Source: an uncultured Bacilli bacterium (GTDB taxonomy: Bacteria; Bacillota_I; Bacilli_A; RF39; UBA660). Taken from it: a DNA stretch of 37,757 nt. Each line of letters begins with the position of its first letter. The first letter of the stretch is position 1. The notes under the pieces are model-generated. The model was not told where the DNA came from. It saw nothing but the letters and a program-made list of their open reading frames with translations, and did not search any database. Where the stretch lies: positions 1 through 37,757 of the forward strand of contig CALVOW010000014.1 in assembly GCA_944350445.1 (NCBI GenBank), given 5' to 3'. This document shows positions 3,156 to 27,445 of the stretch, in pieces. The translations under genes were made by a program, and so were the position numbers.

Positions 3156-3184
3156 AGAAAAAAAACTATCGTTTTTACACGATA
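3156..3184 (-). terminator. Terminator overlapping the end of the cold-shock gene
   Basis: The stem TATCGT (3167-3172) / ACGATA (3179-3184) encloses the stop codon of the cold-shock gene in its loop, and the minus strand then reads a run of eight T. Coding end and terminator share the same bases. Confidence 0.75.
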
Positions 3185-3399
3185 ATTTCTGATTTTACTA
3201 CTGAAACATTTAACGCCTGATATCCCTTTGATGTTTCTAAAAGATTGAACTCCACATACTGCCCTTCTTGCAAAGTTTTGTATCCTTCTTGGTTAATTGC
3301 TGAATAGTGAACAAATATGTCCTCCTTATCAGTAAATTCAATAAAGCCATACCCCTTTTCATTGTTAAACCACTTAACTCTACCTCTTACCACGTTCAT
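3175..3399 (-). CDS. Cold-shock domain protein (CspA family)
   Basis: This 74-residue single cold-shock domain protein binds single-stranded RNA/DNA and acts as an RNA chaperone. RNP1 is visible as KGYGFIEF and RNP2 as DIFVHYSAI. The frame is open from an ATG at 3414, but that segment contains the ribosome-binding site AAGGAG itself, so the ATG at 3399 ([11 protein letters not shown]) is the better start and gives a normal CspA N-terminus. It has a slightly extended C-terminus (SVVKSEIIV), whose last codon lies in the terminator stem. A promoter and a 5' leader lie upstream. Confidence 0.95.
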
Positions 3400-3426
3400 A
3401 TCTCTCCTTATCATATAAATTTTTTC

Positions 3427-3465
3427 AGTAGATCTACTATTTTCTTGCGCACATTAATAGTATCA
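3427..3465 (-). promoter_or_regulatory. Cold-shock gene promoter and leader palindrome
   Basis: The minus strand carries an extended -10 element TGA-TACTAT (3465-3457) with no clear -35. About 50 bases of leader follow, including the 12-bp perfect palindrome AGTAGATCTACT (3427-3438), 28 bases before the start codon. It could form a short hairpin in the leader or be a DNA operator; which one is not decidable here. Confidence 0.4.
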
Positions 3466-3640
3466 AATTTTTTTACTCTTTTTTTAATTTTTTTATAAAA
3501 TGTAAAATTTAATCTGTTTTTTACTAAATTATTAACATTTTTGTGAAATAAATGCAAAAAAATACAATTTTTTACTTTTTAAATTTTTTTTAAGGTTAAA
3601 GTTAATTTATATTATAAAATCTAAAATGGTGATAAAAAAT

Positions 3641-4240
3641 ATGATTAAAAATTTTATCATAAATAATTCTATTAGTTTAGTAAATAAAACTAATAAATAC
3701 AACAGTATAGAATTAGAAGAAATAAAATATGGTCTAGAAAGTATTTATCTAGCCATTACAAAAGTTGTTGTCATTTTATTTATTTCCGCTTGTATAGGAT
3801 TATTCAAAGAAGCAGTTTTATTTTTATTAATATTTAATTTAGTCAGAGCAACTGCTTTTGGTTTACATGCTTCCAAAAGTATATGGTGTTGGATTTCATC
3901 TAGCATTTCTTTTCTACTAATACCATTTATTTGTAAAAATGTAACATTCTCAGCCACGTTTTATATAGTTACTTCAATTATTACTATGATTATCTTTTTA
4001 TTATATGCCCCTGCTGATACTGTTAAAAGACCATTAATTAATAAAAAGAAAAGAATGTTATATAAATTACTTTCTATTATAACTGCTTCTATATTTATAT
4101 CACTAATATTTATAATTGATAATTTTCTAATAAAAAACATGCTTATATTTGCACTAATTTTAGAATCTATTTTAATTTTGCCTATAACATATAAAATATT
4201 CAAACTACCATATAGAAATTATTTAAATTATAAATTATAA
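3641..4240 (+). CDS. agrB: AgrB-like autoinducer-peptide processing protease
   Basis: AgrB is the membrane endopeptidase that cuts the C-terminal tail off the AgrD precursor and forms the thiolactone. The product is a multi-spanning membrane protein of about 199 residues, the normal AgrB size. The diagnostic catalytic pair is present: His in FGLHASK and Cys in SIWCW seven residues later (H76 and C83 from this start), the same spacing as S. aureus His77/Cys84. The family's N-terminal pattern (SLVNK...YGLE) and the later PADT/NKKKR stretch also fit. An upstream in-frame ATG at 3626 exists, but GGTGAT at 3629-3634 is well placed for the ATG at 3641. The gene is followed 45 bases later by agrD and faces agrC. 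Base composition is as AT-rich as its neighbours. Confidence 0.93.
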   Translation: MIKNFIINNSISLVNKTNKYNSIELEEIKYGLESIYLAITKVVVILFISACIGLFKEAVLFLLIFNLVRATAFGLHASKSIWCWISSSISFLLIPFICKNVTFSATFYIVTSIITMIIFLLYAPADTVKRPLINKKKRMLYKLLSIITASIFISLIFIIDNFLIKNMLIFALILESILILPITYKIFKLPYRNYLNYKL

Positions 4241-4285
4241 AATATTTTATATGTTATATATATAAAAGAATAAAAGGAGGAAAAA

Positions 4286-4411
4286 ATGAAAAAATATTTA
4301 GCTATGTTAATTGGAGCTGTTGGAATGATGGCAGCAGGAATTGCAACTACTGGATGTTGGTTAATTATCTTAGATGAACCTGAAATGCCAAAATCTATAT
4401 TAAATAAATAA
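4286..4411 (+). CDS. agrD: AgrD-like autoinducing peptide precursor (41 residues)
   Basis: This short gene directly follows agrB. An AGGAGG site at 4275-4280 sits five bases before its ATG. The precursor has the three AgrD parts: an amphipathic N-terminal helix (MKKYLAMLIGAVGMMAAGIA), a signal core TTGCWLIIL with one cysteine (Cys24), and an acidic, proline-containing tail DEPEMPKSILNK like the S. aureus DEVEVP and Listeria YEPKSP tails. By family precedent AgrB cuts after the core and closes a thiolactone from Cys24 to the new C-terminus. The mature ring is either CWLIIL (cut before Asp30) or CWLII (cut before Leu29); the N-terminal tail length cannot be told from sequence. A strong terminator follows six bases after the stop. 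Confidence 0.92.
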   Translation: MKKYLAMLIGAVGMMAAGIATTGCWLIILDEPEMPKSILNK

Positions 4412-4416
4412 TTAAT

Positions 4417-4460
4417 AAAATAAATCCTTTATTTTAATATATTATAAAGGATTTATTTTA
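4417..4460. terminator. Bidirectional terminator between agrBD and agrC
   Basis: A perfect 16-bp stem (4417-4432 with 4444-4459; core AAATCCTTTAT / ATAAAGGATTT) has an 11-base loop. It is A-rich on one side and T-rich on the other, so it can terminate agrBD on the plus strand and agrC on the minus strand. Confidence 0.88.
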
Positions 4461-4484
4461 TTGTCATTAAACATTACAAATTTA

Positions 4485-5816
4485 CTAACTTTTGTTTGTT
4501 TTAGTAGTATCAATCGTTAAAGAAACAACAAAATAATTATCTAACAATTCATACTTAACTTCAAAACAAGGAATAGATTTTAAAGTTTTATCTATATCAT
4601 ATAATCCTAATCCATGACCTTTTCCTTTGGTAGTATAACCATTTTTAGTAATTAATGATAAATCTACTTTTTCTTTATAAGTATTTGCTAAAATAAAAAT
4701 CAATTTATCATTTTCTAAATATAATACAAAATTAATTTCTTTTTCTTTTGATTCATTACTTGCATAAATTGCATTGTCAAAGTATTCTCCAATTATATCC
4801 AATAATATATTAATTTTATAAACTGTCAATTTGTTATTATTAATTTTTTTAATATCAGAGCTAACATCAACAGATATCTTCAAATTTAATGCTTCTGCTT
4901 TTGATAATTTACAATATACTAAATACCTAACAATATCAATTTTAATATAATTAAGTTTTGAAAACCAACTATACTTTTTAGTTTTATAGTTTTCAATTAA
5001 AGTATCAATATAATTATTTGCTTCTTTAATATCTGATTTTAAATAACCTTTAATAGCTATTAAGTTATTTTTATATTTATGAATTGTTGAACTATGTTTT
5101 TCAACTAAATCGGCTGATGTTTTTAAATAATCTTCTAAAATAATATATTTATCCATAATTTCTTTATTTTTCAAATATTGTTTAAGTAAAACTAATGTTA
5201 AAACCAAACAACCAGCAATTACAATAATATTTAAAACAAATTTATAATCAATTGTCCAATTATTCAAATATAAATTATACATTGAAGAAATTGCAACAAA
5301 AATTGTAATAACACCCAATATAAATGTATAAAAAATATTATTTTTATTAATTATATTAACAAAAACTTTAATCTTATTTTTTAAAAAATAAGCATAAATA
5401 CAGGATAAAATAGAAATAACAAAATTTATAAATATTGATTTTATAAAACTAAACATTACATCAATCTCAAAAATTTCTTCAACAATAATTACAAATATTG
5501 ATACAGATGTTTCAGATAATATAAATAATATATAAGTCACAACGGTATACAAAATGGCATTAACATAATCTTCATTAAAAATTAATTTAAAAATCAAAAA
5601 TAAAATACACAAAGTACCAATAATTTTACCTATATTATCAAATAACAAAGAATTTACTATAAGAAGTAAAGAAAATATTACTAACAAAAAATATTTATAA
5701 AACTTAATTTCATTTAATCTTTTATTTAAAAATATTTTACCAGAAAAGAATATTGCTAAACAACAAGCAAACGCTCCCATAAAATATTCGACCCAAGTCA
5801 TTAAATCATAATTCAT
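4485..5816 (-). CDS. agrC: AgrC-like sensor histidine kinase
   Basis: The 443-residue product has an N-terminal half of six or seven hydrophobic segments (about residues 8-213), as in AgrC-type peptide receptors, then a short dimerisation helix with the likely phospho-acceptor His246 in TIHKYKN, and a GHKL-type ATPase domain. The N box is GEYFDNAIYAS and the G box is GKGHGLGL. AgrC detects the mature autoinducing peptide at the outer membrane face and phosphorylates AgrA. Its ATG overlaps the agrA stop by four bases (ATGA), so the two are translationally coupled. The gene converges on agrBD. Family assignment (HPK10) rests on the architecture and the neighbours. Confidence 0.92.
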   Translation of the reverse strand: MNYDLMTWVEYFMGAFACCLAIFFSGKIFLNKRLNEIKFYKYFLLVIFSLLLIVNSLLFDNIGKIIGTLCILFLIFKLIFNEDYVNAILYTVVTYILFILSETSVSIFVIIVEEIFEIDVMFSFIKSIFINFVISILSCIYAYFLKNKIKVFVNIINKNNIFYTFILGVITIFVAISSMYNLYLNNWTIDYKFVLNIIVIAGCLVLTLVLLKQYLKNKEIMDKYIILEDYLKTSADLVEKHSSTIHKYKNNLIAIKGYLKSDIKEANNYIDTLIENYKTKKYSWFSKLNYIKIDIVRYLVYCKLSKAEALNLKISVDVSSDIKKINNNKLTVYKINILLDIIGEYFDNAIYASNESKEKEINFVLYLENDKLIFILANTYKEKVDLSLITKNGYTTKGKGHGLGLYDIDKTLKSIPCFEVKYELLDNYFVVSLTIDTTKTNKS

Positions 5817-6583
5817 ATTAAATCTCCCCCAATCACAACTTGTTCACTTTCTTTCAACCCTAAAAGACATAGTTCTTCTAATTCTTTCTTTTTATCCCTA
5901 GACAAACAATTTGTATATTTATCATTAAAATAAATTGCTGGAATACTTGTATTAATTTTTGTAATTTTAAAAGTATTCACAATACAACTTCTATGAACAC
6001 GAAAAAATCTTTTATCATTTTTTAATAATTTTTCAATTTTGGCAATATTTCCTCGATATTTAAATCTATCATTTATAGTTTCAATATACAAACATTCATC
6101 ATACTTATCTTTTTCAATAAATAAAATATCATTATACGGTATTCTCACGATTTCACTATCTTGTTTAAATGATAAAAACTTATTGCTATTAAAAATTTCA
6201 TAAATTTCATGAAAGCAAAGCATTAATCTATCTTCAAGTTCATCAAATTTAGAAATAAAATCTACCATAAATATTTTTTTATGAAAGGCATTTTGTATTA
6301 AATCTTGATGTGCTGTTGCAATAATTATTTGATCATTCATTGTTTTTTTAAAATTTCGTATTTCTCTGGCTAAATCAAGACCAGATTTTCCTTTTACTTC
6401 AATATCAAAAATATATATATTTTGACCAGTTAAACTTTTAATAAAATCTACCAAATTTTGGTTATATTCTGCAAAATGATATATCTTATACTGATCATCA
6501 CTTTTTCCCATAAATTTATGAATAATATCTTCATACAACTTGTCAAAATATTCTTCATCTTCATAGATAACAAAATTAATCAT
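5813..6583 (-). CDS. agrA: AgrA-like LytTR response regulator
   Basis: The 256-residue product has a receiver domain (about 1-125) with acidic residues in IYEDEE, the probable phosphorylation site Asp60 in IYIFDIEVKGKSG, and the IIIATAH strand. A LytTR DNA-binding domain (about 140-235) follows, seen in FFRVHRSCIVN and the preceding KYRGNI segment. LytTR regulators bind paired short direct repeats upstream of targets such as agrBD. The start has a TTGGAGG site. It lies 19 bases downstream of the tagO-like gene with no terminator between, so tagO-agrA-agrC may be one transcript. Confidence 0.93.
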   Translation of the reverse strand: MINFVIYEDEEYFDKLYEDIIHKFMGKSDDQYKIYHFAEYNQNLVDFIKSLTGQNIYIFDIEVKGKSGLDLAREIRNFKKTMNDQIIIATAHQDLIQNAFHKKIFMVDFISKFDELEDRLMLCFHEIYEIFNSNKFLSFKQDSEIVRIPYNDILFIEKDKYDECLYIETINDRFKYRGNIAKIEKLLKNDKRFFRVHRSCIVNTFKITKINTSIPAIYFNDKYTNCLSRDKKKELEELCLLGLKESEQVVIGGDLI

Positions 6584-6602: not shown

Positions 6603-7667
6603 TTATTTTTTCTTCTTTTTAAATTTAATTTGTTTTTCAGTTATAATATTGGTTTTATTTATAAACCAAAAGACTAATAAAAATAATACAATATATATAC
6701 CTCTTCGAATATAAATATCCACTTGATCATTTAAAGTATAAAAAATAGAGGCAAGAGCAAATAAAATATTTACTCCATAAATAATTAACACGGTATTTCG
6801 ATGGGAAAATTTCATTCCAAGTAATTGATGATGAAGATGGAGTTTATCCGCATCAGAAATACGTTTATGTTTAATTAAACGTCTTAAAATTGCAAAAAGA
6901 GTATCTAAAATAGGAACAGCAAGTATTAAAAGGGGAACAAACACAGAAGTTAAGACAGTTCCTTTAAATCCAAGTAAAGAAATTACAGCAATAATAAAGC
7001 CTAAAAACAAAGCCCCTGAATCACCAGCAAATATCTTGGCTGGATAAAAATTATGAATTAAAAATCCTAGTGTACTACCAAGCATAATTAAGGCTAAAGT
7101 AAATTCCAAACCAGTTATTCTGCCTTGAAAAAAGCAAATTACAATAATGGTCATGAAAAAAATAGACGAAATTCCTCCAGCTAATCCATCCAATCCATCA
7201 ATTAAATTGATAATATTCATACAAGCCACAATAAAAATAATAGTAATTGGATAAGCAAAATAACCAAAGTTAATTACTAAACCAAAAGCAGTTAGTTCAC
7301 TTAAAAGAATTTGCCCATAAAAAGCTATAACCGAAGCTGACAAAATTTGCCCCACTAACTTATCTTTGGCATTTAAAGGTTTAATGTCATCTATAATCCC
7401 TGTTAATAGAATTATAAAACTACCAATTAAAATAGAATTCATTTGAATGGTATTTTGACCAAAAAACATATATCCTACTAAAAAGGCAAAAAAGATTCCT
7501 AAGCCTCCAAGTCTTGGCATTGGTTTAGTATGAACTTTTCTTTCATTTGGCACATCAAGAGCATTAACATGAACTGCGATTTTTTTTACCACCGGTATTG
7601 ACACAGCTGCTACAATTAGAGTAAAAATAATTACTTTTAAAGAATATAAAACTGTACTATTGAACAT
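6603..7667 (-). CDS. tagO: TagO/WecA-type undecaprenyl-phosphate sugar-1-phosphate transferase
   Basis: This polytopic membrane enzyme (354 residues from the chosen start) belongs to the MraY/WecA/TagO family, which moves a sugar-1-phosphate, usually GlcNAc-1-P, from a UDP-sugar onto undecaprenyl phosphate to start wall teichoic acid or other envelope glycan synthesis. Visible motifs are DVPNERKVHTKPMPRLGG, the Mg-binding GIIDDI, NLIDGLDGLAGG, AGDSGALFLGF, and the HLHHQLL motif of the cytoplasmic loop. The open frame reaches 7706, but the CGGAGG site and spacing select the ATG at 7667 (MFNSTVLYS). The basic C-terminus (KFKKKKK) is unremarkable. The exact sugar is not readable from sequence; TagO is favoured over MraY by the HLHH and NERKVH motifs. 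Confidence 0.93.
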   Translation of the reverse strand: MFNSTVLYSLKVIIFTLIVAAVSIPVVKKIAVHVNALDVPNERKVHTKPMPRLGGLGIFFAFLVGYMFFGQNTIQMNSILIGSFIILLTGIIDDIKPLNAKDKLVGQILSASVIAFYGQILLSELTAFGLVINFGYFAYPITIIFIVACMNIINLIDGLDGLAGGISSIFFMTIIVICFFQGRITGLEFTLALIMLGSTLGFLIHNFYPAKIFAGDSGALFLGFIIAVISLLGFKGTVLTSVFVPLLILAVPILDTLFAILRRLIKHKRISDADKLHLHHQLLGMKFSHRNTVLIIYGVNILFALASIFYTLNDQVDIYIRRGIYIVLFLLVFWFINKTNIITEKQIKFKKKKK

Positions 7668-7685
7668 ATTGATACCTCCGAAAAA

Positions 7686-7694
7686 ATTATAACA
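7686..7694 (-). promoter_or_regulatory. Promoter of tagO (extended -10)
   Basis: The minus strand reads TGT-TATAAT, an extended -10 box, immediately after the mbl terminator. No good -35 is present; the region 17 bases upstream is the terminator T-tract. It would drive tagO and perhaps agrA-agrC. Confidence 0.6.
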
Positions 7695-7703
7695 CTTATA
7701 TAG

Positions 7704-7748
7704 CAAAAAAACTAGTAATTTCTTTATTTTTCAAAGACTTACTAGTTA
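7704..7748 (-). terminator. Terminator of mreB/mbl
   Basis: AACTAGTAA (7710-7718) pairs with TTACTAGTT (7739-7747). The minus strand then reads seven T. The stem begins four bases after the mbl stop. Confidence 0.8.
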
Positions 7749-7751
7749 TTT

Positions 7752-8732
7752 TTAATCTAATAAATACAAATTTTCAAGTAATATTCCTGTTCCTTCAGCA
7801 ACACTTGTTAAAGGTGTTTCTGCCAAATAAATCGGAATTTTTAATTCATCTTCCAATAATTCTTTTAAACCATTAATTAAAGATCCGCCCCCTGTTAAAA
7901 CGGCACCATTTTCAATAATATCAGCTGACAATTCAGGAGGTGTATCTTCTAAAACACTTTTAGTTGCTAAAATAATCTTATTTACATCTTCTTTTAAAGA
8001 TTCCTCTATCTCTTGACTATTAATCATAATAATACTTGGCAAACCAGTTTCTAAATCACGTCCTCTTACTTCCATTTCTTCTTCTTCCGAACTTTCATAA
8101 ACTGATCCTATTTGATGTTTAATAGATTGTGCTGTCTTATCTCCTATTAATAATTTATATTTATTTTTAATATATTCTTTAATATCATTATCAAAAACAT
8201 TACCTGCTACTTTTAAAGAACGACTAACAACAATTCCACCAAGTGATAAAACGGCAATATCGGTTGTTCCACCACCAATATCAATAACCATATTGCCATT
8301 TGGTTTACTAATATCAAGTCCTACACCAATAGCAGCTGCTTTTGGTTCTTCTTCCAAATAAACCTTTTTAGCACCTAATTTCTCAGCAGCTTCCCGAATA
8401 GCATTTTTCTCAACCGGAGTAGTATCAGCTGGACAACAAATAACAATCCTTGGCTTTTTAAAGAGACCTCTAGCTTTTACTTTATTAACAAAATAATCAA
8501 GCATTAATTCAGTTATTTCAAAATCTGCAATAACTCCATCTTTCATAGGTTTTATAGCTCGTACTTTAAATGGAGTCTTGCCAAGCATATCAAAAGCTTC
8601 ATTACCAAAAGCAAGTGGTTTTCTTGTTTCCGTATCAATAGCAACAACCGATGGTTCATTTAAAATAATTCCTTGTCCTTTTACATAAATCAAGATATTT
8701 GCAGTCCCTAAATCAATTCCAATATCTTTCAT
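7752..8732 (-). CDS. mbl: MreB/Mbl-family actin-like cell-shape protein
   Basis: The 326-residue product is a bacterial actin of the usual MreB length. The ATP-binding motifs are GIDLGTANILIY near the N-terminus, DIGGGTTDIAVLS in the middle and ENGAVLTGGGSLI near the C-terminus. MreB paralogues polymerise under the membrane and direct elongation-mode peptidoglycan synthesis. Its position next to the spoIIQ-like gene recalls B. subtilis, where mbl lies near spoIIQ and spoIIID, so Mbl is the preferred paralogue, though MreB and Mbl cannot be told apart here. mreC/mreD do not follow, which also argues against the classical mreBCD operon. An AGAGGTG site precedes the ATG. Confidence 0.93.
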   Translation of the reverse strand: MKDIGIDLGTANILIYVKGQGIILNEPSVVAIDTETRKPLAFGNEAFDMLGKTPFKVRAIKPMKDGVIADFEITELMLDYFVNKVKARGLFKKPRIVICCPADTTPVEKNAIREAAEKLGAKKVYLEEEPKAAAIGVGLDISKPNGNMVIDIGGGTTDIAVLSLGGIVVSRSLKVAGNVFDNDIKEYIKNKYKLLIGDKTAQSIKHQIGSVYESSEEEEMEVRGRDLETGLPSIIMINSQEIEESLKEDVNKIILATKSVLEDTPPELSADIIENGAVLTGGGSLINGLKELLEDELKIPIYLAETPLTSVAEGTGILLENLYLLD

Positions 8733-27300: not shown

Positions 27301-27335
27301 ATTACCTCCTTATGATTATTTATATTTATTTAAGG

Positions 27336-27430
27336 CCAAATAAAAGTCCTTCGAAAAGGACTTTAAATAGATTACTATATTTATAGTCCTCGGTAGGATT
27401 TACAAAATTACCTACTGTCTTTGGCACCAC
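27336..27430 (-). ncRNA. Ribosomal protein L10 leader with attenuator
   Basis: The minus-strand leader between the promoter and rplJ contains GTGGTGCCAAAGACAGTAGG and, farther on, CCTACCGAGGA, the pairing arms and loop of the known L10 leader. It ends in an attenuator hairpin, AAAGTCCTT (27364-27356) with AAGGACTTT (27351-27343) and TTTTATTT. Binding of the L10-L12 complex to the leader favours termination in this family. Confidence 0.93.
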
Positions 27431-27445
27431 TTAATAAACAAAATT

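Follow-up and report, generated by a model that had tools for sequence, protein, structure and literature searches.

The question raised by this locus is whether signal genes and receptor genes that face each other from opposite strands constitute a working agr-type quorum-sensing system. We addressed it in the window, that is, the whole 37,757-nt stretch of DNA analysed, and in genomes of its taxonomic family, which is most likely RF39/UBA660, a group of uncultured gut Bacilli.

The window carries a complete agr locus

The initial annotation had described a complete agr locus in which agrA-agrC on the minus strand converge on agrBD on the plus strand. All four genes were found with Pfam or NCBIfam family matches, and their strands confirmed the convergence; the four genes therefore do not form a co-directional agrBDCA operon. 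The features of the region are as follows.

3175..3414, minus strand: cspA, divergent neighbour of agrB (PF00313)
3545..3600, plus strand: LytTR/AgrA-like tandem half-site region, a family feature; the window copy is degenerate (2.2 bits)
3610-3620, plus strand: predicted -10 region of the agrBD promoter, TATTATAAAAT, placed in the window from a family-wide motif
3628-3633, plus strand: ribosome-binding site (RBS) of agrB, GGTGAT
3641..4240, plus strand: agrB, encoding the predicted AgrD-processing membrane peptidase/cyclase (PF04647, 4e-31)
4183..4258, plus strand: 18-bp perfect inverted repeat pairing the 3' end of agrB with the agrB-agrD gap (z -3.7)
4286..4411, plus strand: agrD, signal precursor (TIGR04223, 25 bits; cut-off 19)
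4414-4432/4444-4462: perfect inverted repeat of 19 bp around an 11-nt loop, separating agrD from agrC; putative bidirectional terminator
4485..5816, minus strand: agrC, receptor histidine kinase (PF14501, 8e-10; HisKinAgrCStaph, 1e-11)
5813..6583, minus strand: agrA, response regulator with a LytTR domain (PF04397, 1e-15; NF046049 AgrA, 5e-15)
6603..7706, minus strand: tagO/wecA-type glycosyltransferase gene, 19 bp upstream of agrA (PF00953, 5e-37)

The agrB reading frame can be extended to a mechanical ORF start at 3626; the annotated start at 3641 was preferred because this start and its RBS are both common to most of the closest relatives. agrB and agrD lie 45 bp apart on the same strand and are predicted to form a single transcription unit, in which agrD has a strong RBS (GGAGG). 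agrC and agrA overlap by 4 nt.

The catalytic His/Cys pair of AgrB, seven residues apart as annotated (GLHASKSIWC in the window), was invariant in all 179 aligned sequences from the 181 distinct agrB genes that the family loci yielded. An AlphaFold2 model of AgrB (pLDDT 83.8) was all-helical with seven helices, and a fold search with it against the PDB returned no matching solved structure (best E 2.5). AgrD has the annotated 41 residues and scores above its model cut-off; an alignment of its relatives displayed an amphipathic leader, a Cys/Ser ring residue and an acidic tail. The annotation of an AgrC-type sensor and a LytTR regulator was also borne out. AgrC has the make-up of a multi-pass sensor joined to an HPK10-type kinase, with a membrane sensor (residues 1-215, its spans judged from sequence only), the phospho-acceptor His246 and a GHKL ATPase, and His246 and three ATP-site residues (Asn348, Gly402 and Gly404) were invariant in 143 of 143 sequences. 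Its match to the NCBIfam AgrC model falls below the staphylococcal equivalog cut-off, and it is therefore a homologue, not an orthologue, of the staphylococcal model. In AgrA, the LytTR domain scored above its cut-off and the receiver domain just below (27.2 bits against 30.2), with Asp9, Asp60 and Lys112, which include the phospho-Asp, invariant among 13 aligned AgrAs. Judged by these sequence features, the locus is a genuine agr system. An Rfam search gave no match at the agr locus, and thus no known RNAIII-like RNA in the window; an ordinary ribosomal protein L10 leader (RF00557) lies elsewhere in the window, at 27331-27442 on the minus strand.

The annotation had also placed a 16-bp bidirectional terminator between the converging genes. 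A terminator-like hairpin does lie between the two stop codons; its stem is longer than claimed, at 19 bp. The repeat folds at z about -6.4 on both strands relative to shuffles. A simple terminator scan of the window reported none, because this hairpin is too AT-rich for it. Hairpins with an A-tract, a stem-loop and a T-tract occur at the equivalent place family-wide, and 97 of 142 folded better than all 20 of their shuffles. The second repeat, at 4183-4258, had similar counterparts in two close relatives only (L096 and L097).

The convergent layout is close to fixed in the family

AgrB was present in 195/291 genomes and 116/150 genera of the family. Where a receptor gene was found downstream of agrB, agrC/agrA converged on agrBD in 162 of 164 loci, the exceptions being L045 and L067. 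Outside the family, the comparison was made within the same class (Bacilli), as a search at phylum level gave matches from no other class, with Clostridia covered by literature only: in a class-wide sample, AgrB matched in 22 non-family genomes out of roughly 260, of which 17 passed the family cut-off, and none of the 14 loci with a neighbouring agrC was convergent, all having it on the agrB strand. The convergent layout is thus nearly a fixed trait of the family, and the other members of the class that were sampled lacked it. The word 'unusual' in the initial annotation holds against these 14 other Bacilli loci but not within the lineage itself, where the layout is nearly universal.

The chromosomal site is conserved as well. 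cspA adjoins agrB in 105 of 118 family loci within a conserved secA-hpf-cspA flank, and the opposite flank is tagO-mbl-spoIIQ in the part of the family that includes the window; a site conserved in this way points to vertical inheritance. In 29/84 family loci, the gene immediately upstream of agrA is tagO. Read-through from tagO into agrA-agrC is therefore likely in the window genome, where the gap is short, but not general in the family.

Close relatives of the window are uncultured Bacilli sampled from the gut, including that of rabbits and the rumen; some had been filed as Clostridia or Erysipelotrichaceae, and an order-level search found only the window's family, with small genomes. The family fits what has been published on RF39/UBA660, namely peptidoglycan plus spoIIQ/spoIIM (PMC10868615) and reduced genomes (PMC13155120). 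The literature examined on RF39/UBA660-type lineages, including these two papers, makes no mention of quorum sensing. The earlier suggestion that agr is perhaps undescribed in such a spore-gene-carrying, AT-rich lineage agrees with the literature searched, which held no description of it.

Predicted signals are diverse and some may be closed by threonine

The window AgrD contains the predicted ring CWLIIL (4355-4372), followed by the acidic tail DEPEMPKSILNK. Among 170 family AgrDs, 166 distinct rings were found, so that almost each species has a predicted signal of its own; nearly all were hydrophobic, and the acidic tail was conserved. Variable rings beside a conserved tail form the pattern that would be expected of diversifying signals. 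In staphylococcal AgrD, the Cys stands five residues before the tail. In the family, the Cys-to-tail distance was six residues in 135 AgrDs, seven in 11 and five in 4, and the typical ring is therefore predicted to have six residues if AgrB cuts at the same place as in staphylococci. Six-residue rings have been predicted in some clostridia too (PMC10301443).

In 21 AgrDs the ring Cys was absent, and its exact place was taken by Thr in 15 and by Ser in 6. The 15 Thr-type genes (L003, L009, L020, L040, L053, L066, L073, L107, L118, L122, L198, L205, L215, L216 and L242, with L009 assigned by eye) have the Thr exactly six residues ahead of the acidic tail and an intact AgrB, and the AgrBs paired with Thr- and Ser-type AgrDs retained the catalytic His/Cys pair. 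Ser/Thr made up only 2.8% of residues at other ring positions and about 30% in the leader residues directly before the ring, so that their occurrence at the Cys position is not due to chance on either yardstick. On a quick FastTree phylogeny of AgrB, upon which these counts depend, Thr required eight changes and Ser three. From these sequences, the Thr-type relatives are predicted to make Thr-closed peptides. In Staphylococcus intermedius and in Enterococcus faecalis (GBAP), a hydroxyl residue likewise replaces Cys in closing the ring, as predicted for the Ser/Thr relatives; that residue is Ser in both (PMC12312760; PMC10482373), whereas 15 relatives here have Thr and the window AgrD is of the Cys type. 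Ser-closed lactones are thus known, and the literature searched, which covered few subscription papers, contained no Thr-closed AIP. We give an even chance to the broader proposal that this family amounts to a large natural collection of agr signals: AgrB would tolerate a third residue for ring closure, and Thr-closed AIPs would have arisen several times beside the Cys and Ser types, with one and the same convergent locus producing all three.

AgrA probably activates agrBD in many family members

Family-wide, agrBD promoters shared an extended -10 element (TGnTATAAT) about 29 nt ahead of the start; a promoter scan of the window gave hits at the shuffled level only. Upstream of the -10 element, the family promoters showed a direct-repeat signal whose lag is exactly 21 bp (z 7.9). 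Anchoring on the -10 element resolved the repeat into two CnnTTnAnGC half-sites at a fixed distance from it, with a log-likelihood ratio (LLR) of 412 against 25 +/- 5 for shuffles; the null consisted of mononucleotide shuffles and the sequences are related, so that the size of the statistic is inflated though the effect is clear. A free EM search for half-sites without this anchoring returned a poly-T motif instead and was discarded. LytTR regulators recognise pairs of 9-bp repeats with 12 bp between them, which gives a period of 21 bp, and AgrA's ACAGTTAAG resembles the family half-site. Because the tandem half-sites match this LytTR/AgrA pattern, AgrA probably activates agrBD in many members of the family. 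The window's own site is poor, so that this species may autoinduce weakly or not at all.

An exact consensus scan of 283 genomes for further AgrA targets was rejected, as the matches mostly looked coding and 21 nt is a multiple of the codon length. Separately, the region upstream of cspA in the window (3418-3470), between cspA and the agrBD promoter, contains the palindrome GTAGATCTAC and TTGCGCA, and this region is largely conserved among close relatives.

Proposed mechanism and comparison with known agr systems

With a probability of roughly 0.8, we read the locus as a working agr-type quorum-sensing system made of two converging transcription units, namely an agrBD signal unit with its own promoter and an AgrC-AgrA response unit, separated by a hairpin. 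agrBD would be transcribed from its extended -10 promoter, divergently from cspA, giving AgrD. AgrB would cut AgrD ahead of the acidic DEPEMP tail, a site extrapolated from staphylococcal AgrD, and would close a thiolactone from Cys24 to form the six-residue ring. The exported peptide would bind the membrane part of AgrC, which would then phosphorylate AgrA; phosphorylated AgrA probably activates agrBD through the tandem LytTR sites upstream of its promoter, and may also act on a downstream regulon. From the other side, agrAC would be transcribed, here probably through tagO read-through, so that the supply of receptor would depend on how strongly cell-wall genes are expressed, independently of the signal loop. 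Both transcripts would end at the hairpin that separates agrD from agrC.

Staphylococcus aureus agrBDCA has the same four proteins, an AgrD tail DEPE.P, His/Cys catalysis by AgrB and an AgrC/AgrA phosphorelay. Its agr genes (RNAII, P2) all run in one direction as a single operon, which has full positive feedback and is accompanied by RNAIII (PMC10482373), whereas the window has two converging units, a predicted ring one residue longer and no RNAIII-like Rfam match. Listeria monocytogenes also has agr in a Bacilli lineage and a short cyclic thiolactone peptide, but its four genes are transcribed from one autoregulated promoter and a pentameric ring is favoured (PMC11297923). Two-operon agr systems (agrBD, agrCA) are already known in clostridia (PMC12312760; PMC10301443). 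In Clostridium acetobutylicum, too, agrBD and agrCA are separate units and the rings are predicted to have six residues; the passages of PMC10301443 consulted do not describe a convergent orientation there, and the window differs further in its gene order agrA-agrC, next to cspA and tagO. A convergent agr arrangement at a conserved site was not found described in the literature searched.

If the reading of a working convergent system is right, agr signalling, so far centred mostly on pathogens, would become a trait that a large uncultured gut lineage carries almost throughout, its signal and receptor being separately controlled and each species having about one signal type. The family would then offer a natural experiment on the evolution of signal specificity, and the reading predicts its ring chemistry, namely six-residue rings and Thr closure.

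Signal and receptor halves are separable

In genome G221 (locus L249, 4469-8599), which belongs to the window's genus, agrBD was absent and agrC-agrA were kept beside tagO, with a 671-aa BspA-type leucine-rich-repeat protein in place of agrBD; this genome is a possible listener without a signal of its own. A second genome (L263) also retained agrC-agrA without agrBD. In five further loci (L250, L251, L255, L257 and L265), agrBDC had gone and agrA was the only agr gene left between cspA and the operon that follows; tblastn detected no agrB or agrC remnant at the site in these five genomes. The loss of agrBD while agrC-agrA stay indicates that the two halves evolve separately, and such loss can leave listeners. 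The separate control of signal and receptor proposed in the annotation is not new by itself (PMC12312760; PMC10301443).

The persistence of agrCA without agrBD would also be expected if agrBD made a peptide while AgrC-AgrA answered some other signal, perhaps a foreign one, so that the units were neighbours and not partners. The test for covariation of AgrD and AgrC that the initial annotation proposed gave a weak signal between ring and sensor (partial Mantel r 0.06, p 0.004), which decides neither way because rings are saturated between species; it was no stronger than that of the rings with the AgrC kinase half (r 0.05) or with AgrB (r 0.11), and thus was not specific to the sensor, as this alternative would have it. 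However, adjacency was kept in 162/164 loci over more than 100 genera, the kinase matches the AgrC model, and LytTR-type tandem sites lie at the agrBD promoter. We consider it unlikely that the two units are not partners.

The very high ring diversity and strong hydrophobicity would suit a cyclic peptide that serves mainly against competitors, by killing them or by blocking their signals, and less to report the density of its producer's own population. Such a role is improbable, as the locus almost always includes an AgrC-AgrA pair dedicated to it and has no constant gene for self-immunity. Least probable of all is a decaying agr remnant in a reducing genome: family genomes are small, some members lost agrBD or agrBDC, and the window's AgrA-like site is degenerate, but its four genes are intact with all key residues, and close relatives have the same intact locus with AgrB 67-71% identical.

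Several loci, including L035, L048, L062, L191 and L235, had two or three agrC matches each. These may be tandem copies facing one agrBD, perhaps two receptors per signal, and some matches may be fragments. In L065, agrC and agrA are separated by the gene of a 424-aa membrane protein (7228-8502) whose C-terminal part resembles AgrB and includes an H..C pair. An interpretation of this match as a kinase fusion was rejected, since the protein is not a kinase and the AgrB resemblance covers only part of its greater length. Long-frame partial AgrB matches resembling this protein also occurred in G134, G172 and G035.
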